Shown in pieces: positions 15,701 to 63,144 of a DNA stretch of 64,000 nt. The notes beneath the pieces were generated by a model. It did not search any database. It was not told the origin of the DNA and worked only from the letters and a program-made list of their open reading frames with translations. The first letter of the stretch is position 1. The number at the start of each line of letters is the position of its first letter. Source of the stretch: Antedon bifida (taxonomy: Eukaryota; Echinodermata; Crinoidea; Comatulida; Antedonidae); contig OY727099.1 in NCBI GenBank assembly GCA_963402885.1, forward strand, positions 25,377,001-25,441,000, in the 5' to 3' direction. The translations under genes were made by a program, and so were the position numbers.

Positions 15701-18700
15701 ATGTGCAGCTACTGTATTGTGCCTTTCACAAGAGGAAGGGAAAGAAGTCGACCTATGACCTCGATTTTAGAAGAGATCAGAGTACTTTCTGAACAGGTGA
15801 AACATTATTACGTGTTGTACATTTCTCAAATATGTCTGTCTATGTTTCTAATAATTATACTGATTTATTGCAGCAACTTTTTGTGAAAAGTTAACATTTT
15901 TTTGTACATTATATTGACGTGATAAAATGATGTTATCATCTTTATCAAATATTACTGAACATGGGGTTTTCAGCTTTCCAACTTCAACATTATCAGACAC
16001 TTCATCAAGAACTTTTATTCATTTTGAACATTCTGTAAACTTTGTACTTTATAGTAGTTTAATTTTACCAATATATACTTCTAATAAATTATACTTGTAC
16101 TAACATATTTGATTTGTCCAATCTGAAATCAACAAGCAATCATCTTCATCTACATTTTGGCCACCATAGTTCAGCTTGATAGAATTGATTAATTCTTTTT
16201 GTACTGTGATTGTCATTGGTGAATTTATGATGTGTTTGCCATCAACTGTCACATCTAATCTACAATCTCCCGGGCTTGTACATTTTCTTGTCAATACATA
16301 TTCTCCGTTTTGTTCTTGAAACTTAGTTTGCTGTGACCATGTTGCATTCAGTTGAGTTGTATCTACTTCACATTCTTTTAGTTTTATTACTTTTATTACA
16401 ATGGTTTCATTTTCTATCACAGATTCCTTTCCTTGTAAAGTTAAATGGTCAGCTGTTGTCACTTTTATTACATTTTCAGGATTGAACTTTTGTAGTTGAA
16501 CAAATTGCTGTTTGATTTGATAAAAGTCAGTTTGTCCGTCATCGATTTGCTGTGTTTTTGGTAAATCATTCATTCTGTCTGTCAGTGCTCTAACTATCAT
16601 TTTACCCGATGCAATTGCTGATACTTCATTGCCTTTTAATATTTGATGAAGTAAATTCAGTTTTGTTTTCATATCAGATATTGTTTTTTTAAATTCATTT
16701 ATTTGTTCACCAATCTCTGTCTTTTTCTCTTCATAAATTGTTTTCACTTGGTTCTTCAGTGCCTCTCCTTTCTTTCTGATTGCCGTAATGGTTTCTTCTA
16801 CACAATCTTCAATATCTTGCAAACAATTTTTCTTATTTTTGTACAGTCCTATGTCAATCTCGTAAACCTCTATTAAGCTCTTTTCTAATTCTGTTGTATA
16901 AGTATTTGCATCCTTTTCTAACTTTGTTGTAGTTTCCTTAAATGTTTTAAATGCTTCTATAATTGCTATTGGCTTTTGTCTCCCTTCACAATCTCTGTGG
17001 CCCAAGATTGTACAATTTACACAGATTGGGTTTTCACAATCCTTGCAGTAAAATTCCAAAGGTTTTTCATGAACCTCGCACTGTGGGGGATGCAATGATG
17101 CAATCTGTATTGAGCTCATTTCTTTCATCTCATTCATTGAGTATAGCTTGTGACTTCTCAAAGCTGGAATTCCTTTATGACTGGCACAACATATGGAACA
17201 TATGTACTCCTTACAATCCTGACAGTAACTTTCCACTTTTTCACCCTTTTCACAAACACATTTCTTTTCAATTTTTTCCAAAAAGTGTTCAACAGTTTCA
17301 AGTATGTTTTTTAGAAATGTGTTTGTGGAAAGCTTTGTAATCCCGCCCTCAGGAATTGGGTAAGTTTTTGAGCATGTTGAACAAGTGAGTGTCCCTTTAG
17401 TTGTCACACATTTTTCTAGACATGTCAAACAGAAGGTGTGTAGACAGTTCAAAGTTTTTGGATCGTTAAGTCGATTTTTGCATATTCCACACTCAAGATG
17501 ATCGTTGATGTCTTCTATAAATGTATTCACCTTACTAACAGCCATCTTGAAATAACCTGTTCACAATCAAATGGCACTTTAGGCAGCAAATCTTGTCAAT
17601 CTCTGGATCGTTGAAGACTTTTATTAGACATGTGACTTAAACCGTCATGCTTCAACCATCTCAAGAATTCTATAATTAGTTATATTATGCATACATATAT
17701 TTGTCATTAAAAAAAAGCTTACCTTCACAACAAAGTCTAGATTGATTAAGTTGTAATTTACACCAATAGTCGCGTTTAATCTAAAAACTTTTGAACATTG
17801 TTAACACACATTTGTTGCTGTATATTCGATGTTGCAATATAATATATTTATATATATACATATAAACAATCCTTGTTTTTCCTTGTTTATATCCTGTTTC
17901 AAACAATGGTTTGACCTTAAAACACAAGTTCCTGTATTGGATAATGCTTATGCTATTTAGTAACATAAACTAAATATATTTTGCCATGTGACTATTAACA
18001 GACTGGACTGTTATTGACCTTAACCTTGTGTCCTAATAAGTCTACATTGAAAGAAGGGTGATGATTATCATCAAACATTATTTTATTGACTTACATACCT
18101 TTAAGGTTATTTAAAATAAGTAGACTACCTTAATACAGAACTTTTATGCAAATTAGCTAACATGATCCAGGTTAATTAATGCACCTTAATTTCTTTACCA
18201 AAGATTATAAATTGGTAGCAACTTACATCATAGTTTTTTATTTTACAGGGCATAAAAGAGGTAACTCTGGTGTAGTTTGCTGATAGATTAATCAAATAGT
18301 TTTAGTAATTCAGTATTTGTAATGCTTTGGTGGTAGACAGATTTATTTCAGCAATTGTTGGCTGATGTGAAATGATGCATAATCCTTTTGCCCATATTTC
18401 TCTAATATAGTACCTGTAGCTGTAAGGATTTTATAGAGGGTGCTCGAAACCATTTTGAAAAGTGTTATTGTTATAGAGTGATTGATTTTCATGGTTCATA
18501 GATTATTGCAGTTTTAGTAATTGAATAACTTCATTGTTTTATCATGATAATCTATTACAGACATTTTTCATGGCTAATGTGAAATGTTACCTTTTGCCCA
18601 TTTTGTTTCACCAATCACTTTTATGAATTTACCATCTTTATGATTTAAGAGTTGTACATTGTATCGACATGATACAATAATGTATCATATTTATCAACTA

Positions 18701-22551: not shown

Positions 22552-24573
22552 TTAGTAATTCAATATCTTCAATTTTTTGTAACTTATTGCAGCAATTTTC
22601 CGTGGCTGATGGGAAATGATACATATTGCTAAGGAACATTTTGCTTCATCAATTTCTTTAATGAAATGACCATCTTTATTGCAGAGTTGTACATTGTAAT
22701 CACTTGATATAATGATGTTATTATCTTTATCAACTACTACTGCAGTCTGTTTTGTATCAAAACCACAAATTGGTACATCAAGATGTTTGATTAAAACTCC
22801 ATTATTATCGGTCAGTTGTAATCCATGTTGTGACGTTAATATGAGAATCTGTCTTTGGTTTGTAGAAGTGACATCTATGATACTTGTATCAGGTTGTGAC
22901 CATCTATTGATAACCTGACCATTACCAATGTTAAATACCACTGTACCATTGTCACCATCAGCTACATAGACAACATTTGATTCCTCATCTACATGGATAC
23001 CTCTTGGATTTTTTAATTCTTCTTGACCAAATGTTTTAACCACCTCACCATGCATATTGCATATGGTAATGCACTCCTTACCACTGCACTCCTTACCACT
23101 GAATGTTATGTCACCATTTTTCATTTTGAACATTCTGTTAACTATTGTACCTTTTGGTAGTTTAATTTTACCAATGCGTTCTCCTGATGTGTTATACTTA
23201 AGTATTTTATTTGTCAAACATGAAACCAGCAAGCAATCATCTTCATACTTAAGTACATCTTGACCAAGAAGGTCTAGTTTGATAGATTTTAACAATTCTT
23301 TTTCTACTGTTATTGTCTTCGGTGAATTTATAATGTCTTTGCCATCAACTGTCACATCTAATCTACAAACTCCTGGGCTTGTAACATATTTTTCCAATAT
23401 ATATTTTCCTTTTTTTTCTTTAAACTTAACTTTTTCCTGCTCATGCTGTGTAGACCATGTTGCATTCAGTTGAGTTGCATCTACTTTACATTTATGTAGT
23501 TTTCTTACATTTACTACAATGGTTTCATTTTCTATCACAGATGCATTTCCTTGTAATGTTAGATAGTCAGCAGTTGTCACATTTTTCGCATTTTCTGTGG
23601 CGATCTGTTGTAGTTCAACTAATTGCTGTTTGATTTGGCAAAAGTGAATTTGTCCATCGTCAATTGGCTGTTTTTTTGGTAAATCATTCATTTTACTTGA
23701 TTTCCTTGATGATGCTTCATTGCCTTTCAATAATTGATGAAGATAATCAAGTTTTGTGTTCACATCAGCAACTGTTTTATTTAATTCTTTTGTTTGTTCA
23801 TCGATCTCTGTCTTTTTTATTTTATAAATTGTTTTCACTTGCTTCTCCATTGCCTCTCCATTCCTTTTGATTGTCTTGATGGTTTCTTGTACATACTCTT
23901 CAATATCTTGCAGACAATTTGATTCATTTTTATCCAGTTCTGTATCAATCTCATGAATTTCTTTTAAGCTGTTTTCTAATTTTTTAGAAGTATTCATAAA
24001 TATTTGAAATGCTTCTGAAATTGCTATTGGCTTTGCTGTAGCTTTACAACCTCTGTGACCCGAAGTTGTACAACTCTCACAGATCGGGTGATCACAATCT
24101 TTGCAGTAAAATTTAAAATGTTCACTGTGGGCCTCACACTGTGGGGGATATAATGATGCAATCTGCATTGAGCTCATTTCTTTCATGGAATGCAACTTGT
24201 GATTTCTCAAATTTGGAATTCCTTTGTGACTAGCACAACAAATGAAACATATGTACTCTTTACAATCCTGACAGTAACTTTCTACTTTTTCACCCATCCC
24301 ACAAACACAATTCTGTGCATCTTTCTCCAAAAGTTCAGTTTCTAAAATGGTGTTTAGAAACGTGTTCGGTGCAAGCTTGTGAAGACCGCCCTCTGGAATT
24401 GGATATGTTTCGCAGCATGTTGGACAAGTGAGTGTCCCTTTTTTTTTCACCCATTTTTCTAGACATGTCATACAGAAGGTGTGGAGACAAGTTAAAGTTC
24501 TTGGATCATTAAGTTGATCAGTGCATATGCTACACTGAGTGAGATCATTGATGTCCGGCTTACTGGCAGCCAT
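22552..24573 (-). CDS. TRIM-B: RING/B-box/coiled-coil/filamin/NHL protein
   Basis: Intact 673-aa TRIM of the TRIM2/3/71-like layout, expected to be a RING E3 ubiquitin ligase with a target-binding beta-propeller. RING about 14-60 (CSICTDQLNDPRTL, CLHTFCMTCLEKWV, CPTCCETYPIP), B-box 1 about 90-130, B-box 2 about 145-185 (CEAHSEHFKFYCKDC), coiled coil to about 290, filamin-like repeat about 325-415, NHL repeats about 420-673 (GIHVDEESNVVYVADG, AVVVDKDNNIIISS). The coding sequence is one exon. The first ATG is at 24573; a good acceptor (TTTACAG) at 24585-24590 puts the exon start 11 nt upstream, in frame and in phase 1. It could therefore serve as the last exon of a longer transcript starting in the death-fold gene 1.2 kb upstream on the same strand. 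Confidence 0.88.
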   Translation of the reverse strand: MAASKPDINDLTQCSICTDQLNDPRTLTCLHTFCMTCLEKWVKKKGTLTCPTCCETYPIPEGGLHKLAPNTFLNTILETELLEKDAQNCVCGMGEKVESYCQDCKEYICFICCASHKGIPNLRNHKLHSMKEMSSMQIASLYPPQCEAHSEHFKFYCKDCDHPICESCTTSGHRGCKATAKPIAISEAFQIFMNTSKKLENSLKEIHEIDTELDKNESNCLQDIEEYVQETIKTIKRNGEAMEKQVKTIYKIKKTEIDEQTKELNKTVADVNTKLDYLHQLLKGNEASSRKSSKMNDLPKKQPIDDGQIHFCQIKQQLVELQQIATENAKNVTTADYLTLQGNASVIENETIVVNVRKLHKCKVDATQLNATWSTQHEQEKVKFKEKKGKYILEKYVTSPGVCRLDVTVDGKDIINSPKTITVEKELLKSIKLDLLGQDVLKYEDDCLLVSCLTNKILKYNTSGERIGKIKLPKGTIVNRMFKMKNGDITFSGKECSGKECITICNMHGEVVKTFGQEELKNPRGIHVDEESNVVYVADGDNGTVVFNIGNGQVINRWSQPDTSIIDVTSTNQRQILILTSQHGLQLTDNNGVLIKHLDVPICGFDTKQTAVVVDKDNNIIISSDYNVQLCNKDGHFIKEIDEAKCSLAICIISHQPRKIAAISYKKLKILNY

Positions 24574-25461
24574 GTTGGAATTACCTGTAAACAATTATAC
24601 TTTATAAACATTATTTGGAATTTGCTTTATTTGATATAATTTGAATAGAATATTCTAAGATTATTGACTCTACTTACTCTATTTACACAGAAAAAATTTT
24701 TTTTTTGCTTCTTTTGTACAATTTTACTAAAGATTTGTAATTGTAGAAAAAACATTAAAAAGAAGAAGTTTTTTCATGAATATTTAAACTGAGCAAAAAA
24801 ACAGGAATAAACCAGTAGCAACAATTAATTTTCTGTGATTGTCTAACCTTACCATTGGCTTTATATAAACAAAATAATTGAATTGAACAACGATAATTGC
24901 TTCTGATAATAAAAGAATATAAATGGAAAGATTATCCTTTTGTTTCACAATTGAATTTATAATTAACTGTTAGATTTTCTTAAATGTATTAACTAAATGT
25001 ATTAACTATTTAATAAAAATAAAAACGCCAAATTAGGAAGGTGACTACTCTGGTGATTGATAAAAAATACTATTTAAATCAATAAAATGTTCTTATAAAA
25101 CATATTAGTGGCAAAATTTATCTTATAGGATAACAAATTTCCTGTATTAGAATGATGTGGATAATTAGCAAAAATGCTTTAATGCAGCAACTCAAATCTC
25201 ATCTCATACTATTAGGAATTTGCATTGCAGACAGTAAAGTTTATTGAAAATTGTTTTTTTCATTCATATTTCAGGTTCAGGATTGCACAGGTTTAAAATC
25301 TAGGCCACAGTGATTTCAATAGATGTTTGTTATATCAACAAATGTTTGTTAACCATTGTCAATGAGATCCTAATATTAGGTTAAAAATTAAATAACCTAT
25401 GGATGGAAAACAAAATGTAAACTTATAAATGACTAAACATAAATGCTTAGTGATCTCTCAC

Positions 25462-25735: not shown

Positions 25736-27887
25736 TCAGTTTTTTTTAGATTGGGTTATTGGTTTAAAAATTCCTTCTTCTTCGAGCATATAGAGTGCTT
25801 CTTGATATTTTTCTTTGTCAATGTATGTTGTCCATTCCATTTGAAATTTCTGCTGCTGCTTCTTTGCCAATAATATTTCTGATAATTTTACAAGAAGCTT
25901 TCCGCTTTGAAACATTTCCCAAAGGTTCACCAGAGCAGCAGGATCCAGCACAGATAAGTTGAATATTATAGAACCATGTTCTGCATTGGTTAATTTTAAC
26001 CCATTTTCTTGACAGAAATGAATAAATCGCTGTATTGCTGAAAATAGAATTTTCTCATCATCTTTATTCATTGTGTTTTCATATTTGTAAAGTTCAACTA
26101 TGAAATCACAAATGCTTGGTATTGACAGATATCTTCGATTTTCTTTAAGAAAATTGGTTAAAAATTGCAGTTTGTTATCAATACTTCTTAATTCAGATGG
26201 CCTAACATCAGTGAGAGTAATCTGTGATGATTGCAGAGTTTGATTAATTGTTCTTTGTATTAATTGCAGTTTTTCATCAATGGTGTTTAGTACAGATGGC
26301 ATATGAGTTGATAAAGATTGTAGATTTTCATCAACAGCTCTTAGTAATGATGGCCAAACTTTATAGACTTTTGGTAAAGATTGCAGTATTTCATCAATAG
26401 TTCTTTGTAGTGACTGCAGTTTTTCATCAAGATTTCTTGATGGGCTATCTTCAGTGGAAGTCCTTTGTGACAGAGATTCATCGCAGATCTTTTTTTGAGG
26501 TTGTTGCTTCTCAAAGTCAGTCTTCCGTTTCAGAGTGACTGATATTTGAATATCTGTAATAAATAAAAAAATACATTTAATATTTTATTATTAATTAAAC
26601 TACTTACCTTACCTTTGTAGAAATACATAGTGTATTGCAAATCCTACTTTACTTGTGTCTGCCATGTTAGCATTTGATTAATGTATAACAAAAATAAGTT
26701 TGTTTACTGTGTGCACCAATAATGCATGTAGTTTAAGAATACAATTTAAGACAGTTTATAAATATCAGTTTCATTGTTAACAGCAAAATGTTTGTTTCAA
26801 ATTATATGGAGAAAATTTAATATTGGAGTACTATGGACATTTATTTATGAGTAAGTAAGTAACTTTTTAAAACTAAACTAAATTAAAAATTATTTTTTAT
26901 AATGTTAAAATGTTCCATGACTTACCTTTAGTAAGAGTTTTTACAGCCCTATGTAGTCCAAGACCCTTTAATATCTCAATAAATTCATCAATTTTGTTAT
27001 CTTCTTCACAAATTACATTAGTGTGATGTAAATCCATGAGAAGACTCCATCCATCGTGATAGTTCTTTGGAGGATGATTGTACACATTATCAATTTTGTT
27101 CACATCCTCCTGTATCAGTACATTGCCTAAATTCAGAATCTTTTGTTGATGATGACTGAATTTTGTAATAATGATTTTTCTAACATCAGGAAAAGATGGA
27201 AAGTGAATTTTAAGTTTGTCTACAAGAGCAAACTGTTTAGTGGCCTTTATGGTATCATGAAGTAGAGTAAGATCATTTGAACTCAGATCTCCAGAATCAC
27301 GTAACTTATTCAGCAAGTCCATCGTTGTAGAGGCTTTATCTAAGGCAGCTTCTGAAATGTAACCTTGAAACAAAACTTTCAGTTGCTTAAGAAGTGACCG
27401 TTCATCATACCAAGTTGAAAAACTTACTAAAGCCTGATTAAATTTGTTAAAGGTTTCTGGAATGAAAGAGAAGAAAATAAATTAATATAATTTACAGGAC
27501 TATTTACGTTAAGTTAATGTTAAACATCCCTTGAATAACATATTCTTGTTTTACAGTTAATACTTTTGTTTATTCCTTCTTATTTAGTAATATAAAACTT
27601 GGCACAACTTAATTAAACTTCCATTTAAAGAATAAAATTTGAAAAATTCATGTTACATCACTAAATAAGCAATTATACATAGAATCCAAAATATGACCAA
27701 CTAGAGATACCAAATACCAAATTATACTACTTAAAATATTTAAAGGACAAAATAACACTTTTTTTTCTTAATTGTCATCTATAACAATGTGCATAATTAT
27801 TTAAATCCAGAATTTGTAAAATTGAACCTACCTGGTTTAGCCATTTTGTCAAATAACAGTGCTTGTTTTCTATCTATTGATGTATTT
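25736..27887 (-). CDS. Death-fold adaptor, FADD-like plus TRADD-N-like (copy 1)
   Basis: Three coding exons: 27832-27844 (MAKP; exon begins at an acceptor near 27887, so a 5' UTR intron exists), 26926-27456 and 25736-26553; total 1362 nt, 453 aa. Exon 2 holds a death-effector-like domain (about 15-80; LLKQLKVLFQG, LRDSGDLSS) and then a death-domain-like helical region (about 95-175; FSHHQQKILNLG, YHDGWSLLMDL). Exon 3 starts with repeats of the type LQSLQRTIDE and ends with a region resembling the TRADD N-terminal domain (AEHGSIIFNLSVLDPAALVN). FADD has the DED-DD order; linking it to a TRADD-like region is unusual. Unlike its sisters, exon 3 runs past the normal donor (GA in place of GT) to a stop, so no TRIM tail is attached by that route. 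Role inferred: homotypic death-fold signalling in the cytosol. Domain calls come from pattern comparison only. Confidence 0.72.
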
Positions 27888-29696: not shown

Positions 29697-31811
29697 TTAG
29701 TAATTGAATATCTTCAATGCTTTGTTATACTGATCTATTACAGCAATTGTTCGTGGCTGATGCATGCATGAAATGATGCATAATCCTAATGCCCACTTTG
29801 TTTCACCAATCACTTTTATGAATTTACCATCTTTGTCAAAGAGCTGTACATTGTGGTAACATGATACAATGATGTTATCATCTTTATCAACTACTACTGC
29901 ACGTGGGTTTGTCAACTTTCCCACATCATTATCTGATGCTTCAACAAGAACTTTGATTGGTCTTCCATCATTATCAGTCAGTTGTAGTCCATGATGCGAG
30001 GTTAATATGAGAATCTGTCTTTGGTTTGTAAATGTAACATCCATGACACATATATCAGGTTGTGACCATTTATGGATGACCTGACCACTAGATATGTTAT
30101 AGGCCACTGTACCGTTGTAACCATTAGCTACATAGACAACATTTGATTCCTCATCTACATGGATACCTTCTGGAGATGACAATCCTCTTCTTTTACTGAA
30201 TGTTCTAATCACCTTACCATTCATATTGCATATTGTAATGCACCTTTTACCTCTATCACTGAATATTATCTCACCATTCTTCATTTTGAACATTCTGTTG
30301 ACTCTTGTGCATTGTGGTAGTGTAATTTCACCAATGTGTTCTCCGGATGTTTTATACTTAAGTATTTCTTTTGTCTGACATGAAACCAGCAAGCAATCAT
30401 TGTCACACTTAAGTACATCTTGACCACCATAGTCTAATTTGATAGAATTGATTAATTCTTTTAATACTGTGATTGTCATTGGTGAATTTATGATGTGTTT
30501 GCCATCAACTGTCACATCTAATCTACAATTTCCTGGGCTTGTACATTTTCTTGTCAATACATATTCTCCATTTTCTTCTTCAAACTTTACTTCTTCCAGT
30601 CCTTCTTGTGTAGACCATGTTGCATTCAGTTGAGTTGCATCTACTTCACATTCCTTTTGTTTTCTTACTTTTACTTCCATGGTTTCACCTTCAATCACAG
30701 GTGCATTTGCTTGTAATGTTAGATAGTCAGCTGTTTTTTCAGTGTCCATAAGTTTTAGTTGAATAAATTGCTCTTTGATTTGACAAAAGTAAATTTGTCC
30801 GTCGTCAATTGGATGTGTTGTTGGTGCATTTTTAATTCTGTCTGTCAGTGCTTTGACTATCATTTTACCAGATTCAATTGCTGATACTTCATTGCCTTTT
30901 AATAATTTATGAAGTAAATTCAGTTTTGTGTTCACATCAGATATTGTTTTTTTTAATTCACTTATTTGTTCATCAATCTCTTTCTTTTTTTTTTCATAAA
31001 TCGTTTTTACTTGCTTCTCCATTGTCTCTCCATTCTTTTTGATTGTCTTAGTAGTTTCTTGTACATAATCTTCAATATCTTGCAAAGATTTTGATTTATT
31101 TTTTTCCAGACCTGTATTGATCTCTAGAATTTCTTTTAAGCTGTTTTCTAATTCTGTTGTAAAAGTATTTGCATCCTTTTCCAATTCTGTCAAAGTTTCC
31201 GTAAATGCTTTAAATAACTCTGAAGTTCCTATTGGCTTTTGTCTCCCTTCACAATCTCTGTGACCCAAGATTGTACAATTCACACAGATTAGGTGTTCAC
31301 AATCTTTGCAGTAAAATTCTAAAGGTTTACTGTGAGCCTCACACTGTGAAGGATGCAATGATGCAATCGGTATTGAGCTCATTTCTTTCATCTCATTCAT
31401 TGAATATAGCTTGTGACTTCTCAAAGCTGGAATTCCTTTATGACTGGTGCAACAAGTTGAACATATGTACTCCTTACAATCCTGACAGTAACTTTCCACT
31501 TCTCCACCCATCCCACAAACACAATTTTTGTTATTCTTTTCTGAAAAATGTTGAACAGTTTCTAAAATGTTGTTTAGAAATGTATTCGGTGCAAGGCTTT
31601 TAAGCCTGCCCTCTGGAATGTTGTAGGTTTTGCAGCATGTAGGACAAGTGAGTGTCCCTTTTTTCGTCATCCATTTTTCTAGGCATATCAAGCAGAAGGT
31701 GTGTAGACATCTTAAAGTTCTTGGATCCTTTAGTTGATCAGTGCAGATGCTACACTCGAGATGCTCATTGATGTCTTCTAAAAACTTATTTGTATTACCA
31801 GCTGCAGCCAT
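29697..31811 (-). CDS. TRIM-C: RING/B-box/coiled-coil/filamin/NHL protein
   Basis: Intact single-exon coding region of 704 aa. RING about 18-62 (CSICTDQLKDPRTL, CLHTFCLICLEKWM, CPTCCKTYNIPEG), B-box 1 about 95-135 ([16 protein letters not shown]), B-box 2 about 150-192, long charged coiled coil about 195-330, filamin-like repeat about 365-455 ([14 protein letters not shown]), NHL propeller about 460-704 (MFKMKNGEIIFSD, GIHVDEESNVVYVANG, AVVVDKDDNIIVS). It would act as a RING ubiquitin ligase, with the propeller choosing the target or RNA. A possible 5' noncoding exon is at about 32660-32800. Its last 280 codons encode exactly the same protein as pseudogene TRIM-D, pointing to recent duplication or conversion. 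An acceptor (CACAAG) lies 10 nt before the ATG. Confidence 0.9.
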   Translation of the reverse strand: MAAAGNTNKFLEDINEHLECSICTDQLKDPRTLRCLHTFCLICLEKWMTKKGTLTCPTCCKTYNIPEGRLKSLAPNTFLNNILETVQHFSEKNNKNCVCGMGGEVESYCQDCKEYICSTCCTSHKGIPALRSHKLYSMNEMKEMSSIPIASLHPSQCEAHSKPLEFYCKDCEHLICVNCTILGHRDCEGRQKPIGTSELFKAFTETLTELEKDANTFTTELENSLKEILEINTGLEKNKSKSLQDIEDYVQETTKTIKKNGETMEKQVKTIYEKKKKEIDEQISELKKTISDVNTKLNLLHKLLKGNEVSAIESGKMIVKALTDRIKNAPTTHPIDDGQIYFCQIKEQFIQLKLMDTEKTADYLTLQANAPVIEGETMEVKVRKQKECEVDATQLNATWSTQEGLEEVKFEEENGEYVLTRKCTSPGNCRLDVTVDGKHIINSPMTITVLKELINSIKLDYGGQDVLKCDNDCLLVSCQTKEILKYKTSGEHIGEITLPQCTRVNRMFKMKNGEIIFSDRGKRCITICNMNGKVIRTFSKRRGLSSPEGIHVDEESNVVYVANGYNGTVAYNISSGQVIHKWSQPDICVMDVTFTNQRQILILTSHHGLQLTDNDGRPIKVLVEASDNDVGKLTNPRAVVVDKDDNIIVSCYHNVQLFDKDGKFIKVIGETKWALGLCIISCMHQPRTIAVIDQYNKALKIFNY

Positions 31812-32659
31812 CTTGAAATACCTTGTGAAAAATCAATAATATTGTATCAAGCATTTATGAAATTTAATCCAATATGGTTGTTATTAATAATTTGACTGAT
31901 TTGATAACTTACAATGTAATGTTGTGTTTGTCTGGCTTACTGTAATGTAATCATGAGATAGTTTTCCTTGCAATTCTGTGGGCATAAATTATATTACAAT
32001 GTCACAGGTTAAAATATGTATTGTCCTCCAATACAGTAAAACTGTAAGTAGGTCATTTTGCAGTTTTAATAAAGTTATTATTAACTTTTGTTTAAAAAAA
32101 AAAAAAAATAATGATTTCACTTTCATTTGACTACTTCATTTTTTTGGATACAAATTCAACACTTTTTAGTTTTTATTTAATTTACAGTTTATCATGTGAA
32201 TCATTTTTTTTATCCTTTATGGTAAAAGTGAATAACTAATGTGAGGTTAAAACAGTCACAGTTAACGGAAATTAGTTTTCCTTTAAGTGTGTAATGTATT
32301 ATTCAAACATATACATATACGTATACATATACTGTAGACAATATATTTCTTATGTATATTTCTTTTAATCGTTCATTCTACAGTAAACGAGGCAGATGGG
32401 GCACTTGTGTTAAGAGTGTTCAATCATAGTTTTTTTTAAATAGATGTGTGGGTTAGACGTCAAACAAACCCACCGTTTTAGAGTCAGATATAGCAATAAT
32501 AATGTAGGCTTTTTGTGCGCAAGTGTCCATCAGAAAAAAATGCTCATGGCACTATTTTACAATAAATAATAAAAAAGCTTTACAAACTACATATGGCATT
32601 ATAACACATTTCACAATAAAAAGAGAAAAGTCAAAAGAATAGTCTGTATTTCTTCTTAC

Positions 32660-36858: not shown

Positions 36859-39800
36859 TTAATAATTAAATATTTTTAATGTTCTGTCAACCTTATTTAT
36901 TACAGCAATTGTCCGTGGCTGATGTGAAATGATGCATAATCCAAGTGCATAGTTTGTTTCACCAATCACTTTTATGAATTTACCATCTTTATTAAAGAGC
37001 TGTACATTGTGGTAACTTGATACAATGATGTTATCAACTACTACTGCTCGTGGGTTTGTCACTTCAACAAGAACTTTTATAAGTCTTCCATCATTATCAG
37101 TGAGTTGTAGTCCATGTGATGTTAATATGAGAATCTGTCTTTGTTTGGTAAAATTGACATCAATGATACATTCATTTGGTTGTGACCATCTATGGATGAC
37201 CTCTTCACTACCAATGTCATATACCACTGTACCATTATAACCATCAGCTATATAGAAGACATTTGATTCCTCATCTACATGGATACCTTTTGGACTTTTC
37301 AATACTCCTCCACCAAATGTTTTAACCACGTCACCATCCATATTGCATATTGTAATACACTTCTTACCAATATCACTGATATTTTGAACATTCTGTTAAC
37401 TTTTGTACCATATGGTAGGCTAATTTTACCAATATATTCTCCTGACGTCTTATACTTATCTATTTCATTTATCCAGCCTGAAACCAGCAAGTAATCATCT
37501 GTATACTTAAGTACATCTTGATCAATTATGTTCAGTTTGATAGAATTTATTAATTCTTGTTTTACTGTGATTTTCATTGGTGAATTTTTGATGTGTTTAC
37601 CATCAACTTTCACATCTAATCTACAATCTCCTATGCTTGTACATCTTTTTTTCCAGACATATTCTCCATTTTCTTCTTCAAACTTTACTTCTTCCAGTCC
37701 TTCTTGTGTAGACCATGTTGCATTCAGTTGAGTTGCATCTATTTCACAGTTATGTAGTTTTCTTACTTTTACTTCCATGATTTCATTTTCTATCACCGAT
37801 TTATTTGCTTGTAATATTAGATAGTCAGCTGTTGTAAAGGTTTTTGCTGTTTCAGTCTCTATCACTTGTAGTTGAACAACTTTCTGTTTGATCTGATGAA
37901 AGTGAATTTGCCCGTCATCAATTGGCTTTATTTTTGGTACATCATTAATTATGTCTCTAATTGCTTTAACTAGCATTTTTCCTGATTCAATAATTGCTGA
38001 TACTTCATTGCCTTTCAATACTTTGTGAAGTAAATTCAGTTTTGTGTTCACATCAGATAATGTTTGTCTTAATTCACTTGTTTTTTCATGAATCTCTGTC
38101 TTTTTCTTTTCATAAATTGTTTTCACTTGCTTCTCCATTTCCTCTCCTTTCTTCATGATTTTCTTGATGTTTTCTTGAACATAATCTTTAATATTTTGCA
38201 GACAATTTGATTTATTTTTTTCCAGTTCTGTATCAATCTCATGAACCTCTTTTAAGCTCATTTCTAATTCTGTTGTATAAGTATTTGCATCCTTTTCTAT
38301 TTCTGCTGAATTTTCCTTAAATGTCTTGAATTCTTCTGAAATTGCTATTGGCGTTTCACTAGATTCACAGCCTCTGTGACCCAAGATTGTACAACTTTCA
38401 CAGATTGTGTTTTCACAATTCTTGCAGTAATAATCCAAAGGTTTCCTGTGAATCTTGCACTGTGGAGGATGCAATGATGCAATCTGTATTGAGCTCATTT
38501 CCATCATATCATCTATAGTAGCTGGAATTCAAGAAATGATAAATAATTATATATTCATATTTCTTCCTATCTTTTACAAAAAAATTAATATCCAATAATA
38601 GTAACATTTTAAGTTAATAAAATGTTCATATAAAATCAAATTTTTCAATATATTCTCTGAGGACTTTGTTTTATATTCTAATTTCCTGTAAAATTACATC
38701 TCACTTTCCGCAAAAAGAGATTGATTATAAAGACTTTAATGTAACCACTCACAACATTTCAGATTTTGTGCGATATGCAGCTAGCCATACTGTCTAATCG
38801 TATGTACTACACTGTACTGTATATTGACAGTACAGTCAATTTTACTTAAAGATGTATTCGTATTTCTTCTACATTGTAAGTTTAGGACTGCACAGCCAGC
38901 ATAGCATTGAAATGGAGATTTATAAGTAACTCTGATAGCTGTCGAAAACAATTTTTAAGTACCACGATATTCTCTGGGCACAATTTGTTTCTACATTATT
39001 TTTTCACCTTTTAAAGAGGCACCAAACGACCGCCTTTTCTGTTATTTTTTTGTTTTTGCTCATACTTTGGAGGATGACTGCAGGACGGTCAGGTAAAGAT
39101 TAAATGAGATTTCTGAATGGAGAACAAATGTGTAGATACTTAAAATGACCTGAATGCTTAGAATGGTGTTTTGAACATAAATTTATTCAAACAAGACATC
39201 ACAAAATAATTGAACATGGAAACTACTTTAAGTGTTACTGCAAATTCTATTGAGCATGAAAGCTTTGGGTTTTTAAATACACCTGGCTGTAAACAACAGG
39301 AAAAGTGCCACATTTTTTATTAGATTGAAGCATTGCAAAATGTATGGCTCACCTTCTCCTTCAAGTATTTGAAGTGCTTCTTGGTATTTGTCTTTGTCAA
39401 TGTGTGTTGTCCATTCCATTTGAAATATGTGCTTATGTTCCTCTGCCACTAATATTTCTGATAGCTTTATAAGAAGTTCTCCACTTTGATACATTTCTCT
39501 TAATTTTATCAGAGCAATGGGATCCAGCACAGACAGATTAAATATTATAGAACCATGTTCTGCTTTGGTTAATTTTGACCCACGTTGTTTGAAAAAATCA
39601 ATTAAGTTTTCCAGTATCAAAATCATCCTTTCCCCCTCATCTAATGGTACAGCATCTTTATGTTTGTCAAATTGATGCATAAATTCTAACACGTTTGGTG
39701 TAATAATTGACAAAGTTTGTTGTTTTTCTTCAAGAAAATGTCGTAAAGATTTCAGTTTGTTATCAATGCTTCTTAGTTCAGATGACCTACCATCAGTGGG

Positions 39801-41235
39801 AGTACTCTGTGATGATTGCAGAGTTTGATTAATTGTTCTTTGCATTGATTGCAGGTTATCATCAATAATTGCTAGTACAGGTGACCTATTGTCTCTACTA
39901 AGTGGTAAAGATTGAAGATTTCCATCAATAGTGCTTAGTAACGATAAATTAAATGCAGGGACAGTTTGCAAAGTTTGCTGAATGTCATCAACAGTTCTTT
40001 GTAATGATTGGAGTTTATCATCTAGGTGTTTTTGTATAGATAGGCTTTCTTCAGTGGAAGTACTTTGCGATGGCATTTCATCACGATTATATTTTTTAGG
40101 TGGTTGATCTCCAGAGTCAGACTTGCGTTTCAGAGTGACCTGTATCGTAACTTCTGTAATAAATGTAAAATAACATTTCTGATTTTTTTTATTCTGTGAT
40201 TTCAATTTACCTTATTAGAAATTACATGATGAACTGACTTTACTAGCCATTCTAACATTTAATAATATTTTTTTAAATAAATGGATACTGTGTGCACCTC
40301 TAATCAAGAGTAATTTAAGAATACTATTTATGCCATATAATAATCTATAATTTTCTGGTTTATTGTTAAGGAGAAGGAGAAAGTTTGAAATTTGAGTAAG
40401 TTTGTAACTTTTTAAAACTAAACTAAATTAAAAATTATTTTTGAAAATGTGAAAGGGTTCCATGACTTACCTTTAGTGAGAATTTCTGTAGCTCTTTGTA
40501 ATTTAAACCCCTTTAAGGTCTTAATAAATTCATCCATTTTTTCTTCACAAATGATTTTTTGGTGTTGTAAATCCATGAGAAGACTCCATCCATCTTGATA
40601 ATTCTTTGGAGGATCATTATACACACCATCCATTTTGATCACATCCTCCGGTATCAGTTCATTTCCTAACATCAGAATCTTTTGTTGATGATGGCTGAAT
40701 TTTGTAATAATGATGGGTTTAACATCCACAATACCAAACTGTTTGGTGGCCTTTATTGTATCATACAAAATAGTGAGATCTGTTGAACTGAGATCTCCAG
40801 AATCACGTAACTTATTCAGCAAGTCCATCATTGTCGTAGAGTCATTATATAAGTCAGCTTGTGCAATGTAACCTTGAAACAAGACTTTCAGTTTCCTGAT
40901 AAGGTTTCGTTTATCGTACCAAGTTGAAAAAGCGACTAGAGCCTTTTTAAAAGGTATTTCAATGGTTTCTAGGAAAAAGATAAGGTAAAATATATGTAAT
41001 ATTCCTCCCACTCTCTTGGCAGTTTTAACAGAATTTTACAACTACTGCAGAGTAAGTGAACAGTTAGCGTTAAAATATACCTCAAATAATAATTCTATTG
41101 CCTACAGTAAATTGGTTTAAACAATTATTTCTTATAATTTAGTACAGTAATCTAAAAATAAATAACACAAATAATTGTGAATTGCAGGGAAAGTTGTCTT
41201 TAAAATGAAAGACCTACTGTACCTGACGTAGCCAT
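36859..41235 (-). CDS. DED-DD-TRADD-N-like/B-box/filamin/NHL fusion, copy 2, propeller damaged
   Basis: Exons 41223-41235 (MATS), 40471-40968, 39353-40153 and the last exon from 38521. All junctions are phase 1 with GT/AG borders. Exon 2 has the DED-like part (LIRKLKVLFQGYIAQADL) and the death-domain-like part (FSHHQQKILMLG); it lacks 11 codons relative to copies 1 and 3, just after the DED-like part. Exon 3 has LQSLQRT-type repeats and the TRADD-N-like region (AEHGSIIFNLSVLDPIALIK). The last exon has one B-box (CKIHRKPLDYYCKNC), coiled coil and filamin repeat but no RING. A loss of about 19-20 nt near 37376-37381 shifts the frame early in the NHL region: translation ends at 37299 after 844 aa, while the rest of the propeller stays open in another frame down to 36859. 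It may make a propeller-less protein or be a young pseudogene. Confidence 0.75.
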
Positions 41236-45385: not shown

Positions 45386-48300
45386 TTAGTAATTGAATAT
45401 CTTCAATGTTGGGTCAGGATTCCCATGCTGATTCATTACAGCAATTGTCCGTGGCTGATGTGAAATGATGCTTAATCCTAATGCCAATTTTGTTTCACCA
45501 ATCACTTTTATGAATTTACCATCTTTATCAAAGAGTTGTACATTGTAATCAGTTGATATAATGATGTTGTCATCTTTATCAACTACTACTGCACGTGATC
45601 TTTTCAACTTTCCCACAACATCATTATATGATGCTTCAACAAGAACTTTGATTAGTTTTCCATCATTATCAGTGAGTAGTAATCCATTAATACTGTCTAA
45701 TATGAGCACCTGTCTTTGGTTTGTAAAGGTAACATCAATTAAAAATGCATTATTGTGTTGTGGCCATCTATGGATGACCTGACCACTATCAATGTTAAAT
45801 ATGTATGTATGATTAATACCAGCTACATAGACAACATTTGATTCCTCATCTACATGGATACCATATGGATGTGACAATACTTCTTTACCAAATGTTTTAA
45901 CCACCTCACCATCCATTGTGCATATTGTAATGCACTTCTTACCAACATCACTGAACGCTATGTCACCATTCTTCATTTTGAACATTCTATTAACTATTGT
46001 ATCTCCTCCTGGTAATGTAATTTTACCAATGTGTTCTCCTGATGGCTTATACTTAAGTATTTCATTTGTCCAACGTGAAACCAGCAAGCAATCATCTTTA
46101 TACTTAAGTACATCTTCACCAACAAAGTCTAGTTTGATAGAATTGATTAGTTCTTTTTGTACTGTGATTTTCATTGGTGAGTTTATGATGTGTTTGCCAT
46201 CAACTGTCACATCTAATCTACAAACTCCTGGGATTTCACATTTTCCTGTAAATAAATATTCTCCATTTTCTTCTTGAAACTTTATTTGTTCCTCAACTTC
46301 CTGTGCCGTCCATGTTGCATTCAGTTGAGTGGCATCTACTTTACATTTATGTAGTTTTCTTACTTTTACTACAATGGTTTCATTTTCTATCACAGATTTC
46401 TTTGCTTGTAATGTTAGATAGTCAGCAGTTGTCACTTTAATTTCCTTTTCAATGTTTTTCACATTTTCTGTGGCAATCTTTTGTAATTCAACAAATTTCT
46501 GTTTGATTTGATGAAAGTGAATTTGTCCGTCATCAATTGGTTTTATTTTTGGTACCTCATTAATTCTGTCTCTCAGTTCTTTAACCACCATTTTACTTAA
46601 TTCCATTGCTGATACTTCATTGTCTTTCAATACTTCTTTAAGTAAACAAAGTTTTGTGTTCACATCAGATATTGGCTTTCTTAATTCTTTTGTTTGTTCA
46701 TCAATCTCTTTCTTTTTCTTTTCAAAAATTGTTTTTGCTTGCTTCTTCATTATCTCTCCATTCATTTTGATTGTCTTGATGGTTTCTTGTACATTGTCTT
46801 CAATATCTTTTAAAGAATTTGATTTATTTTTTTCCAGTTCTGTATCAATCTCTTGAACTCCTTTTAAGATGTTTTTTATTTCTCTTGTATAGGTATCGGC
46901 ATCCTTTTCTAATTCTGCTAAAAGTTTCTGAAATGATTTAAATGCCTCTGAAATTGTTATTGGCTTTTGTTTGCCTGCACAATTTCTGTGACCCAAGATT
47001 GAAGGCCTACAACTTGAACAGATTGTGTGTTCACAATCCTTGCAGTAATATTCCAAGGGTTCACTGTGAATCTTGCACTGTGGGGGTTGTAATGATGCAA
47101 TCTCATCTGAGCTCATTTCCATCATATCATCTATAGTAGCTGGAATTCAAGAAATGATAAATAATTATATATTCATTATTTCTTCCTATCTTTTACAAAT
47201 AAAATTAATATTCATTAATAGTAACAGTTTAAGTTAATAAAATGTTCATATAAAAAAAACTTTTTCAATATATTCTCTGAGGACATTGTTTTATTTTCTA
47301 ATTTCCTGTAAAATTACATCTCACTTTCCGCAAAAAGAGATTGATTATAAAGACTTTAATGTGACCGCTCACAACATATCAGATTTTGTGCGATATGCAG
47401 CTAGCCATACTGTCTAATCATATGTACTACACTGTACTGTATATTTTCAGCTAACAGTACAGTCAATTTTCCTTGAAGATGTATTTGTATTTCTTCTACA
47501 TTGTCAGTTTTTAAAGTTTAGGACGGCACAGTCAGAATAGCATTGAAATGGAGATTTATAACCAACAAGTAACTCTGATAGCTGGTGAAAAAAACAATTT
47601 TTACCATGATATTCTCTGGGCACAATTTGTTTCTACATTATTTTTTTCAATTTTTAAAAAGGCACCGAACGACCCGCCTTTTCTGTTTTTTATTTTTGCT
47701 CATACTTTGGAGGATGACTGCAGGACGGTCAGGGAAAGATTAAATGAGATTTCTGAATGGATAACAAATGTGTAGATACTTAAAATGACCTGAATGTTTT
47801 GAACATAAATATGGAACACCTTTTTTTTAAATCAAAACAAGACATCACAAAATAATAGAACATGGAAACTACTTTAAGTATTACTGCAAATTCTATTGAG
47901 CATGAAAGTTTATGCTTTGTGTTTTTAAATACATCTGGCTGTAAACAACAGGAAAAGTGCCACATTTGTTTTATTAGATTGAAGCATTGCAATATGTATG
48001 ACTCACCTCCTTCAAGCATTTGAAGTGCTTCTTGGTATTTGTCTTTGTCAATGTGTGTTGTCCATTGCATTTGAAATGTCTGCTGATGTTCCTCTGCCAC
48101 TAATATTTCTGATAGCTTTATAAGAAGCTCTCCGCTTTCATACATTTCTCTTAGATTTATCAGAGCAATGGGATCCAGCACAGACAGATTAAATATTATA
48201 GAACTGTGTTCTGTTTTGGTTAATCTTAACCCATGTTCTTGGCAGAAATGAATAAGTCGCTGTATTGCTGAAAATAATATCGACTCATCATTTGTCGTGA

Positions 48301-50313
48301 TTGTGTTTTCACATTTGTAAAGTTGAACAATGAAATCACACGCACTTGGTGTAAAAATTGACAAGTATTGTTGATTTTCTTTAAGAAACTTTTTTAGTAA
48401 TTGCAGGTTATCAATACTTCTTAGTTGAGATGGCATATCATCAGTGGGAGTACTCTGTACTGATTTACTTTTTGTTTGTAATAGTTGTAGCGGTTTTTCA
48501 ATAGTTAGTAGAGGTATATAGTCAGTGCTACGTAATGAATGCAGAATTCCATCAATTGTATCTCTTAGTGAAGATGGCCAAACTCTATAGACATTTGGTA
48601 AAGATTGCAGAATTTCATCAATAGTTCCTTGTAATGACTGCAGTTTTTCAGTAAGATTACTTTGAATAGACGGGCTATCTTCAGTGGAAATAGTTTTTGA
48701 TGAAATACCAACATAGGATTTTTTATGAGGTAGTTCTTCAGAGTCAGATTTCCGTTTCAGAGTGACTGGTATCTCAACACCTTTAATAATGTAAAAACAA
48801 AATTACAATGATTAGTGAGAACTTTTGACATCTATAATTAATGAAACACTTTTTTCAGAATACATTATATAACAATTAATGCTAATAACAGATTTAATTT
48901 AATAAGTTTTCTGTTTTCTATTTTTTATTTTGTTGCTTTAAGTACTTCTCCAATATTTATTTTTTAGTAGGGATAAATCAAAGGCTAGATTTCATGTCAA
49001 TTAAGTTGAAAATGTACCTCTTTATGTAACTAAGTGTTTTTGTTTGCCATGCCTTTAATAGATATTTGTTAAAAGAAGTAAACATTTTATTCGGTATAAG
49101 AATATCATTTTAGCAGTTACATCATTTACATAATTTACAACAAAACATTTTCATTTTGTGGAGAAAATTTCAAATTACTTAGTAATATTTTAAAATTGTT
49201 TAGCAAGGATTTTTTTTCCAATAACTTACTATAAATAATTAAAACTCCATCACATTTAACATACCTTTAGTAAGGGCTGCTACAGCTCGTGGTAGTTCAA
49301 GACCCTGTAAGATCTCAATAAATTCATCTATTTTGTTATCTTCTTCACAAATGATTAGTTTGTGTTGTAAATCCAGAAGAAGACTCCACCCATCTTGATA
49401 GTTCTTTGGTGGATCATTGTACACTTTATCAATTTTGTCCACATCCTCCTGTCTCAGTACATTACCTAAATTTAGAATCTTTTGTTGATGATGGCTGAAT
49501 CTAGTAATAATGGTTTTTCTAACATCAGGGAAAGATGGAATGTGAATTCTAAGTTTGTCTACAATACCAAACTGTTTTGTGGCCTTTATGGTATCATAAA
49601 AAATGGTGAGATCCTTTAAACTCAGATACCCAGAATCCTTTAATTGATTCAGCAAGTCCATTGTTGTAGAGGCTTTATGTAAGTCAGCCTCTGCAATGTA
49701 ACCATGATACAAAACTTTCAGTTTCCTGATGAGTGATCGGTCATCATACCAAGTTGAAAAACATACTAAAGCCAGTTGAAAAGATTTGTCATATGTTTCT
49801 AGAATGAAATAGAAGAAGATAAGATAAAATATACTTAAATTCATCACACTTGGGCAAATATGAGGCAGTTATTAAAACAGAACGTTCATTTTTATGGACA
49901 CTTCACGTTAAACATCTATTTATTATACCTTATTTCCGTAATCTATAACTATATAATAATAAATTTAAAGTTTTAAGATTTACATTTTTTTTAAACCAGA
50001 TTATTTCACTATAAAACAGTTCTACATTGAATACTAAATGTGAGCAACTAGATACCAAATACTGAATATTAAAATGCTTTATTTATCCATTATCATAATA
50101 AAATAACAATAGAAATTCTTCTTAAAGATTGGCAAATATTAGTATGATACAGATAAATATAGAATATATAAAATAAAATTAAAATATAGAATACACACAC
50201 ATTATTGCACAAAACTTGTGAAATATAAGTTATACTATAAATACTGTAAAAGAAAAAAGAAAATAAATAATTAAAATAATATTTAAAATGAAATTCCTAC
50301 CTGACGTAGCCAT
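45386..50313 (-). CDS. DED-DD-TRADD-N-like/B-box/coiled-coil/filamin/NHL fusion, copy 3, intact
   Basis: Exons 50301-50313, 49265-49798, 48007-48780 and 45386-47139 total 3075 nt, 1024 aa plus stop. All junctions are phase 1 with GT/AG borders. Residues 1-4 MATS; DED-like about 15-85 (LIRKLKVLYHGYIAEADL); death-domain-like about 95-178 (FSHHQQKILNLGNVLRQED, WSLLLDLQHK); Leu/Gln-rich repeats about 195-320; TRADD-N-like about 355-435 (SIIFNLSVLDPIALINLRE, SGELLIKLSEIL); one B-box about 460-502 (CKIHSEPLEYYCKDC, CSSC, GHRNC); coiled coil about 500-645; filamin-like repeat about 674-766; NHL repeats about 770-1024. There is no RING, so any ligase activity would need a partner. By analogy with FADD and TRADD it should assemble death-fold complexes, with the TRIM part giving oligomerisation and target recognition. 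An acceptor upstream of the ATG implies a noncoding first exon. This is the best representative of the family. Confidence 0.82.
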
Positions 50314-51990: not shown

Positions 51991-53780
51991 GAGGCGGATT
52001 TGACCTAGGTTAAAAAATGTCAATCATTTTTATACTGTTGCTGATATTTAAACCAGCTAGTAGTAACAAACAAATCAAAATATACCGTAACCAATAGTGT
52101 GCAAATGTAAAGTTAATTAGAATAATCATTTTTTGAAATCCTTTTTGTGAAATGATATTGGATATGAATTTAGACAAATACAGTATAAATACAGGTAATA
52201 CTAAGCCTAATACAGTACAGAAATATAATATACAGTAGTACCTGACAGCTGTAAGAATTTTAGAGCTCTAGTGTTATTGTTACAGAGAGATTGATTTCCA
52301 CGGTTCATAGATTATTATACAGCTTCAGTAATTGAATATCTTCAATGCTTTGTTATACTGATCTATTACAGCAATTGTTCGTGGCTGATGCATGCATGAA
52401 ATGATGCATAATCCTAATGCCCACTTTGTTTCACCAATCACTTTTATGAATTTACCATCTTTGTCAAAGAGCTGTACATTGTGGTAACATGATACAATGA
52501 TGTTATCATCTTTATCAACTACTACTGCACGTGGGTTTGTCAACTTTCCCACATCATTATCTGATGCTTCAACAAGAACTTTGATTGGTCTTCCATCATT
52601 ATCAGTCAGTTGAAGCCCATGATGCGAGGTTAATATGAGAATCTGTCTTTGGTTTGTAAATGTAACATCCATGACACATATATCAGGTTGTGACCATTTA
52701 TGGATGACCTGACCACTAGATATGTTATAGGCCACTGTACCGTTGTAACCATTAGCTACATAGACAACATTTGATTCCTCATCTACATGGATACCTTCTG
52801 GAGATGACAATCCTCTTCTTTTACTGAATGTTCTAATCACCTTACCATTCATATTGCATATTGTAATGCACCTTTTACCTCTATCACTGAATATTATCTC
52901 GCCATTCTTCATTTTGAACATTCTGTTGACTCTTGTGCATTGTGGTAGTGTAATTTCACCAATGTGTTCTCCAGATGTTTTATACTTAAGTATTTCTTTT
53001 GTCTGACATGAAACCAGCAAGCAATCATTGTCACACTTAAGTACATCTTGACCACCATAGTCTAATTTGATAGAATTGATTAATTCTTTTAATACTGTGA
53101 TTGTCATTGGTGAATTTATGATGTGTTTGCCATCAACTGTCACATCTAATCTACAATTTCCTGGGCTTGTGTACATTTTCTTGTCAATACATATTCTCCA
53201 TTTTCTTCTTTACTTCTTCCAGTCCTTCTTGTGTAGACCATGTTGCATTCAGTTGAGTTGCATCTACTTCACATTCCTTTTGTTTTCTTACTTTTACTTC
53301 CATGGTTTCACCTTCAATCACAGGTGCATTTGCTTGTAATGTTAGATAGTCAGTTGTTTTTTTAGTGTCCATAAGTTTTAGTTCAATAAATTGCTCTTTG
53401 ATTTGACAAAAGTAAATTTGTCCGTCGTCAATTGGATGTGTTGTTGGTGCATTTTTAATTCTGTCTGTCAGTGCTTTGACTATCATTTTACCAGATTCAA
53501 TTGCTGATACTTCATTGCCTTTTAATAATTTATGAAGTAAATTCAGTTTTGTGTTCACATCAGATATTGTTTTTTTTTAATTCACTTATTTGTTCATCAA
53601 TCTCTGTCTTTTTTTTTCATAAATCGTTTTTACTTGCTTCTCCATTGTCTCTCCATTCTTTTCGATTGTCCTCGTAGTTTCTTGTATATAATCTTCAATA
53701 TCTTGCAAAGATTTTGATTAATTTTATCTAGAATTTCTTTTAAGCTGTTTTCTAATTCTGTTGTAAAAGTATTCGCATCC

Positions 53781-61390: not shown

Positions 61391-63144
61391 TTAATAATTA
61401 AATATTTTTAATGTTCTGTCATACTGATTTATTACAGCAATTTTCCGTGGCTGATGTGAAATGATGCATATTCCCTTTACCCATCTTGTTTCACCAATCA
61501 CTTTTATGAATTTACCATCTTTGTCAAAGAGCTGTATATTGTAATCACTTGATACAATGATGTTGTCATGCTTATCAACTACTACTGCACGTGGGTTTGT
61601 CAACTTTCCAACTGTATACCTTGTTTCAACAAGATCTTTGATTGTTTTTCCGTCATCAGTCAGTTGTAGTCCATTATTACGGTCTAATATGAGCAGCTGT
61701 TTTTGGTTTGTAAAGGTAACATCAATTATATTTTCATTATTGTGTTGTCGCCATCTATGGATGACCTGTCCACTATCAATGTTAAATGCGTATGTATGAT
61801 TAATATCAGCTACATAGACAACATTTGACTCCTCATCTACATGGATACCTTCTGGATATGACAATACTCCTTGACCAAATGTTCTAACCACTTTACCATC
61901 CATTGTGCATATTGTAATACACTTCTTACCAACATCACTGAATGCTATGTCACCATTCTTCATTTTGAACATTCTGTTGACTCTTGTATCTTTTGGTAAT
62001 CTAATTTCACCAATGTGTTCTCCTGATGGCTTATACTTAAGTATTTTATTTGTAAAACGTGAAACCAGCAAGCAATCATCTTTATACATAAGTACATCTT
62101 GACCAACAAAGTCTAGTTTGGTAGAATTTATTAGTTCTTTTTCTACTATGATTGTCATTGGTGAATTTATGATGTGTTTGCCATCAACTGTCACATCTAA
62201 TCTACAAACTCCTGGGCTTGTACATTTTCTTGTCAAGACATATTCTCCATTTTTTTCTTTAAACTTAACTTTTTCCTGCTCATGCTGTGTAGACCATGTT
62301 GCATTCAGTTGAGTTGCATCTACTTTACAGTTATGTAGTTTTCTTACTTTTACTACGATGGTTTCATTTTCTATCACCGATTCATTTGATTGTAATGTTA
62401 GATAGTCAGCCGTTGTCACTTTAATTTCCTTTTCAATGATTTTTTCATTTTCTGTGGCAATCTTTTGTAATTCAACCGATTTCTCTTTGATTTTCTGAAA
62501 GTGAATTTGTCCATCATCAATTGGCTTTATTTTTGGTAAGTCATTAATTCTGTCTCTCATTTCTTTAACAACCATTTTACTTGATTCCATTGCTGATACA
62601 TCATTGCCTTTCGATATTTCTTTAAGTGAACAAAGTGTTGTGTCCAGATCAGATATTGGCTTACTTAATTCTTTTTTTTGTTCATCAATCTCTGTCTTTT
62701 TCATTTCATAAATTGTTTTCACTTCCTTCTCCATTGCCTCTCCACTCTTTTTGATTGTCTTGATGGTTTCTTGTACATTGTCTTTAATATCTTTTAAAGA
62801 ATTTGATTTATTTTTTTCCAGTTCTGTGTCAATCTCTTGAACTCTTTTTAAGCTGTTCTTCTTTTCTCTTTTATAGGTATCAACATCCTTTTCTAATCCT
62901 GCTACAATTTTCTGAAATGTTTTATATGCCTCTGAAATTGTTATTGGCTTTTGTTTGCCTGCACAATTTTTGTGACCCAAGATTGAAGGCCTACAACTTG
63001 AACAGATTGTGTTTTTACAATCATTGCAATAGTATTCCAAAGGTTCACTGTGAACCTTGCACTGTAGGAGATGCAATGATGCAATCTCATCTGAGCTCAT
63101 TTCCATCCTCTCTTCTATGGAATATAACTTGTGACCACTAAAAG
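61391..63144 (-). CDS. Fusion copy 4, last exon: B-box/coiled-coil/filamin/NHL
   Basis: The open 1754-nt terminal exon has exactly the length and phase-1 acceptor of the copy 3 last exon. It encodes 584 residues: a remnant of the B-box 1 border (GHKLYSIEERMEMSS, which the other fusion copies have lost), one B-box (CKVHSEPLEYYCNDC, CSSC), coiled coil, filamin-like repeat ([16 protein letters not shown]) and NHL repeats (GIHVDEESNVVYVAD, AVVVDKHDNIIVSS). No RING. The intron upstream (63145-64000) matches copy 2 intron 3 up to a few bases before the expected TRADD-N exon, so the death-fold exons should lie just beyond the window edge. Partial gene. Confidence 0.82.

Follow-up and report, generated by a model that had tools for sequence, protein, structure and literature searches.

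A predicted fusion of a death-fold front half and a RING-less TRIM-NHL body in the crinoid Antedon bifida

A 64,000-nucleotide stretch of the genome of the feather star Antedon bifida (NCBI GenBank assembly GCA_963402885.1, contig OY727099.1, positions 25,377,001 to 25,441,000, forward strand), referred to below as the window and numbered from its first base, has a G+C content of 31% and carries a tandem cluster of TRIM-NHL genes. All lie on the minus strand and belong to two types, one with a RING in a single exon and one fused and without a RING. The fused type is described here through copy A, which is probably an immune-gene fusion that sets a predicted death-fold front half on a RING-less TRIM-NHL body. 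We give a probability of just over one half to the reading that copy A belongs to a crinoid family in which a constant front, made of a tandem pair of bundles resembling the death effector domain (DED), a linker, and a probable TRADD N-terminal domain (TRADD-N), is spliced to a RING-less TRIM-NHL and works much as pyrin does. The predicted family would have a role in immunity.

Gene structure and domains of copy A

Copy A comprises four predicted exons (Table 1) that, once joined, remain open for 1024 codons up to a stop, and inspection of the sequence found GT-AG boundaries in all three introns. The four-exon, 1024-residue frame proposed in a preliminary description, made from the sequence alone, was thus confirmed.

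Exon 2 encodes two bundles. The DED profile (PF01335) matched the first bundle in all nine family members scanned (best E value, 1.7e-8); in copy A the match had an E value of 0.033 and 14.9 bits (Pfam cut-off, 35.9 bits), and the highest whole-protein scores were 34.7 bits in P0008, a relative, and 33.2 bits in copy C. The best sequence-profile match of this bundle in the PDB was c-FLIP (E value, 0.031). The second bundle was predicted as a confident six-helix fold, and neither the Death nor the DED profile of Pfam matched it in any of 11 relatives. Foldseek, run on the exon 2 model, returned tandem-DED or viral FLIP chains at ranks 1 to 20 (best E value, 0.072); the best structural matches were the tandem DEDs of c-FLIP, caspase-8, and viral FLIP, and the likeness to c-FLIP and to caspase-8 was equal within aligner error. 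Against PDB sequences, the second-bundle profile and P0008 gave unrelated matches only, and the exon 1-2 sequence gave a single unrelated match (E value, 1.1). FADD was absent from the structure match lists, an absence that proves nothing. No homology between the two bundles was detected with hhalign, which speaks, as far as thin profiles allow, against a simple duplication of one DED. With moderate confidence, the modeled exon 2 resembles the tandem DED of caspase-8 and c-FLIP more than the DED and Death domain of FADD. The FADD-like label given earlier is therefore not supported, and a DED followed by a Death domain is the less probable reading; of the DED-like and death-domain-like patterns originally read in this exon, the former stands, but the latter is not confirmed, since the second bundle has no Death match and a predicted fold nearer to DEDs.

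Exon 3 opens with a linker rich in LQSLQRT-like repeats and continues into a conserved block that is probably TRADD-N. The TRADD-like_N profile (PF20694) matched three of seven members (best, 5.9e-4), scoring 18.1 bits in copy C and 15.6 bits in P0003 (cut-off, 23.7 bits). The TRADD-N motif published by Kaur, Iyer, Burroughs, and Aravind (2021; PMC8195603, passages of the article) is a tiny residue followed by Ser, or at times Cys (uS), in the turn that links strands 2 and 3; it occurs in six of seven aligned rows (five tiny-Ser and one tiny-Cys; P0002 has Lys-Cys). Its position is the expected one, flanked by a helix and an IIFNLSV stretch, in an alignment in which the strands themselves are not seen. 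The TRADD-N-like pattern first noticed in this exon has gained the motif, but its profile matches stay under the cut-off and do not include copy A.

The last exon carries a B-box (PF00643; 28.1 bits against a cut-off of 24.1 bits), a coiled coil, and filamin-like and NHL parts. NHL was not listed in the scan of copy A itself; it passed the cut-off (20 bits) in copy D (23.3 bits) and in the RING-bearing sister T3 (25.1 bits), and the whole NHL part of copy A aligns with theirs at 78% and 71% identity, respectively. Filamin was under the cut-off in every protein that listed it (best, 23.2 against 26.9 bits). The domain order first proposed for this exon accordingly holds for the B-box directly and for NHL through homologs, whereas filamin is sub-cut-off only.

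As a rule, TRIM-NHL proteins have a RING at the N terminus. The Pfam scan of copy A listed none, and a tblastn search of the window DNA lying 5' to exon 4 in copies A, B, and D gave no RING match. Toward its end, B-box 1 of the RING sisters T1 and T3 contains Gly-Ile-Pro-Ala, encoded by GGAATTCCAGCT; in copies A, B, and D, intron 3 finishes with GAATTCCAG, and exon 4 starts with CT. The likeness of copy D to the RING copies (4/4) begins at the G of GAATTCCAG, and upstream of it copy D matches intron 3 of copies A and B up to the edge of the window. In copies A and B, likeness to the RING sisters resumes at the tenth exon base. From the switch in homology in copy D, part of the B-box 1 coding sequence seems to have turned into a splice acceptor, leaving the RING and most of B-box 1 out of the product.

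Copies, relatives, and constraint

The exon layout and junctions of copy A recur in copies B and C, in keeping with the gene family that had been proposed. Exons 2, 3, and 4 are present in copy B with the splice phases of copy A, and a scan of 2.5 kb upstream gave no matching exon 1; copy C combines a candidate exon 1 with exons 2 and 3, in phases that agree with the other copies. The donor after exon 3 and the acceptor before exon 4 are retained in copies A and B. At the place of the donor GT, copy C reads GAAGAAG and then GAATTT; lacking this donor and ending at its own stop, it is therefore a free-standing front half.

Relatives were sought in three protein searches limited to proteins that share exact 5-residue words, two of which scored only candidates sharing most words. 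All relatives of the front module that these searches gave were crinoid, eight different proteins (five from Antedon mediterranea plus three short proteins from Anneissia japonica), none near-identical to the window, and the proposed lineage-specific family of death-fold and TRIM parts holds up to that extent. P0001, an independent gene model of 687 residues from A. mediterranea, has the front half followed by a B-box and coiled coil, as in copy A. In the other Antedon proteins, the front half precedes a region of weak leucine-rich repeat (LRR) matches, all sub-cut-off (P0002), or a ZU5 domain (P0003), a Roc GTPase follows the exon 2 part (P0004), or the front half is free-standing (P0005); ZU5 and Roc pass their cut-offs. 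The Anneissia proteins, of 184 to 228 residues, consist solely of the exon 2 part. Standing alone or on ZU5, Roc, and weak LRR proteins, the front half is therefore a shuffled module. A viral origin was rejected, as 62 pattern matches in viral contigs yielded no relatives.

Among copies A, B, and C, the DNA of exons 2 and 3 is 74 to 85% identical. Between A and C, intron 1 is 61% identical, and intron 2 is 51 to 56% identical between A and either B or C and 74% between B and C. The ratio of nonsynonymous to synonymous substitution rates (dN/dS) was 0.41 to 0.48 in exon 2, where all three bootstrap intervals lie below 1 (spanning 0.24 to 0.85), and 0.44, 0.67, and 0.81 in exon 3, where the last interval (0.56 to 1.2) reaches above 1. 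It was 0.67 to 0.93 for whole exon 4 (NG86) and 0.65 to 1.17 for filamin and NHL pairs. Exon 2 is more constrained than the TRIM part; the contrast fits a constant signaling end joined to a fast-changing sensing end, and relaxed constraint would look alike. Exon 4 of copies A and D differs at about 10.5% of sites (about 181 differences) with no stop, and 5.5% of random changes in this exon make a stop, so that about 10 stops would be expected without constraint.

Intron 3 (A, 47140-48006; B, 38522-39352; D, 63145-64000) is 90 to 93% identical, whereas exon 3 is 74% identical between A and B. An intron more alike than the neighboring exon points to gene conversion or recombination as likely, which makes any tree less reliable. 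The B-box/coiled-coil tree (seven rows) is unresolved: the fused label needs two changes, and one change suffices in 31% of bootstrap trees. Fused and RING copies also share downstream DNA, so that simple duplication of DNA is enough to account for the cluster; a retrocopy origin of the RING-less exon was not adopted for the same reason. A 5'-truncated insertion at the first fusion event is possible.

Other features of the cluster were recorded. The TRIM fragment at 52325-53209 reads in its filamin-NHL part nearly like T3 (29697), pointing to a recent duplicate or conversion. Directly downstream of copy B, at 34402-35158, a 375-base unit stands in two tandem copies that match at 97%. Between copies A and D lie remains of a retrotransposon without long terminal repeats (54597-57643, minus strand), with endonuclease (PF03372) and reverse transcriptase (PF00078) frames. 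A plus-strand exon adjoining the TRIM cluster (15440-15886) matched Radical SAM at 29.8 bits (cut-off, 29.5 bits); from its CxxxCxxC-like stretch, it probably belongs to a MiaB/CDK5RAP1-type gene.

Table 1. Positions in the window of copy A, its features, and the related genes
Feature	Position	Strand	Remarks
Copy A, exon 1	50301..50313	-	Start codon, MATS; the MAKP exon upstream of copy C at 27844 is its equivalent
Copy A, exon 2	49265..49798	-	Two death-fold bundles, tandem-DED-like
First bundle, DED (PF01335)	49554..49730	-	Below cut-off in copy A
Second bundle	49272..49529	-	Six helices; the PEA-15 DED is the closest among solved folds
Copy A, exon 3	48007..48780	-	Linker with coil-like repeats, then probable TRADD-N
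Probable TRADD-N region	48008..48352	-	uS motif; PF20694 in relatives
Ser-Ser at the place of the uS motif	48200..48205	-	From alignment
GAATTCCAG splice acceptor	47140..47148	-	Identical to B-box 1 coding sequence in T1 and T3
Copy A, exon 4	45386..47139	-	B-box 2, coiled coil, filamin-like, NHL; without RING
B-box zinc finger (PF00643)	46985..47086	-	Passes cut-off
Copy B	36859..40968	-	Exons 40968-40471, 40153-39353, 38521-36859; NHL part frameshifted near 37377
Copy C	25736..27844	-	Candidate exon 1 27844-27832, exons 27456-26926 and 26553-25736; front half only
Copy D	61391..63144	-	Fused-type exon 4; remainder past window edge
RING sister T3	29697..31832	-	Single exon, open: RING, B-boxes, coiled coil, filamin-like, NHL
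RING sister T2	22552..24594	-	Open frame; ordinary single-exon RING TRIM-NHL type
RING sister T1	16100..17560	-	Frame broken in NHL part
TRIM fragments	53.7-52.3 kb and 58.9-58.3 kb		

Proposed mechanism and rival readings

In the pyrin-like reading, B-box 2 and the coiled coil would hold the copy A protein as an antiparallel dimer or higher oligomer, and the filamin/NHL end would bind a target, which may be a foreign or altered-self protein or RNA. Clustering induced by the target would let the DED pair nucleate a DED filament, and the filament would recruit a DED caspase or a FADD-type adaptor. TRADD-N may bring in a TRAF through its tiny-Ser turn. Oligomerization, ligand binding, and recruitment of caspase and TRAF are each predicted for the copy A product, and a RING-less protein of this kind would signal instead of ubiquitinate.

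Several results weigh against this reading. DED stays under the Pfam cut-off in every copy scanned, and the first bundle is accordingly counted as DED-like; its model is poor, with residues 1 to 20 and 71 to 98 under 50, and none of the Foldseek matches for exon 2 reached an E value of 0.001 or better. The PF20694 matches are under the cut-off in all members shown, with none in copy A itself. AlphaFold2, given seven sequences of the TRADD-N region, returned an unusable all-helix model (pLDDT, 48.5), and the profile of the TRADD-N block recovered no TRADD from the PDB, only two unrelated Cas1 matches. The dN/dS intervals of the TRIM part mostly include 1, copy B is frameshifted, and a single origin of the fusion is not supported by the tree.

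The c-FLIP matches of exon 2, both structural and by the first-bundle profile, and the lack of a caspase domain in all relatives scanned also suit a c-FLIP-like decoy, in which a caspase-less tandem DED would cap or block DED filaments and the TRIM-NHL part would only aim or oligomerize the inhibitor. We consider this unlikely: caspase-8 is matched just as closely, nucleator and decoy are not separable by sequence, and pyrin, with the same layout, is an activator. Alternatively, the locus might make two products, with exons 1 to 3 read into intron 3 as a free-standing DED/TRADD-N adaptor and the RING-less TRIM exon expressed separately or never. The exon 3 frame of copy A does remain open into intron 3 (open reading frame 48802-47780), and free-standing front halves exist in copy C and P0005; yet the exon-3 donor and exon-4 acceptor are kept in A and B, P0001 is modeled as a fusion in a related species, and exon 4 lacks, ahead of the B-box, an own in-frame start preceded by a RING. 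These points make two products rather improbable.

Decay of the cluster would leave recently duplicated TRIM and adaptor pieces, with copy A translated little or not at all. The frameshift of copy B, the interruption of T1, the fragments at 52.3-53.7 and 58.3-58.9 kb, and dN/dS near 1 in the TRIM part of several pairs all lean that way, but copy A is open over its full 1024 codons, exon 2 is constrained, and none of the roughly 10 stops expected in exon 4 at the A-D divergence is seen. We therefore hold decay to be quite improbable and prefer the pyrin-like reading.

Comparison with known systems and meaning for the family

The nearest published families are those of Kaur et al. (PMC8195603). 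In the passages of that article considered here, DED and TRADD-N form the constant regions of families that expanded in a lineage-specific way in marine invertebrates, echinoderms among them (18 to 23 DEDD2-clade copies), TRIM E3 parts and B-boxes are among the domains fused to them, and retrotransposons near the expansions are proposed as a source of fusions. Copy A is alike in its constant front of a DED-like part and then a probable TRADD-N, lineage-specific expansion, variable effector, TRIM/B-box fusion, and nearby retrotransposon; it differs in its second DED-like bundle and in a TRIM-NHL body without a RING. The same passages mention no crinoid case of a RING-less TRIM-NHL with a DED pair and no tandem DED. 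The preliminary view that no protein with all these parts had been described was too strong, given these reported expansions with TRIM fusions. The literature searched, for the most part outside subscription papers, gave no account joining crinoid with TRADD, death effector domain with NHL repeat and B-box, or crinoid, death domain, TRIM, and echinoderm. Fusions of DED/TRADD-N with TRIM are thus already known, and what looks to be added here is the RING-less TRIM-NHL with a DED pair and a RING loss visible at base level.

By analogy of layout, pyrin (TRIM20, MEFV) is likely the closest functional analogue of copy A, and the likeness is likely convergent. In pyrin, as the parts of the source used here describe it, a pyrin domain (PYD) of the death-fold superfamily replaces the RING, and a linker of 60 or 280 residues leads to the B-box, coiled coil, and B30.2 (PMC4455283). 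Copy A shares the death fold in place of the RING, the long linker, B-box 2, the coiled coil, and a C-terminal recognition domain; pyrin has PYD, B30.2, and no TRADD-N, whereas copy A has a DED-like pair, a probable TRADD-N, and filamin-NHL. The order B-box, coiled coil, filamin-like, and NHL is that of Mei-P26, Lin41, and Brat, of which Brat is likewise RING-less; a front half with death-fold and TRADD-N parts is not described for them in the portion of the source drawn on (PMC9070667). The prodomains of caspase-8, c-FLIP, and viral FLIP carry a tandem DED, which the DED-like pair of copy A probably resembles, but copy A has no protease-type domain and carries a probable TRADD-N and TRIM behind the pair. 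FADD and TRADD are also death-fold adaptors, with a DED and TRADD-N, respectively; unlike FADD, the family has no Death domain by profile in 11 of 11 relatives, and TRADD was not recovered by PDB profile.

It is conceivable, though doubtful, that echinoderms independently built a pyrin-type sensor by losing the RING through the B-box 1 acceptor, gaining a caspase-8-like tandem DED and TRADD-N, and so joining NHL recognition to DED-caspase and TRAF signaling. If true, the pyrin layout, with a death fold in place of the TRIM RING, would have evolved a second time and separately, which would mark it as a favored wiring solution. An acceptor-like CAG already lies inside the B-box 1 coding sequence, so that capture of a TRIM gene behind an upstream signaling exon could remove its ligase in a single event; a possible route for such fusions is thereby visible at base level. 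With RING-bearing, RING-less fused, and free-standing versions in one 64-kb cluster, the window offers a natural series on the role of the RING in invertebrate TRIM immunity.

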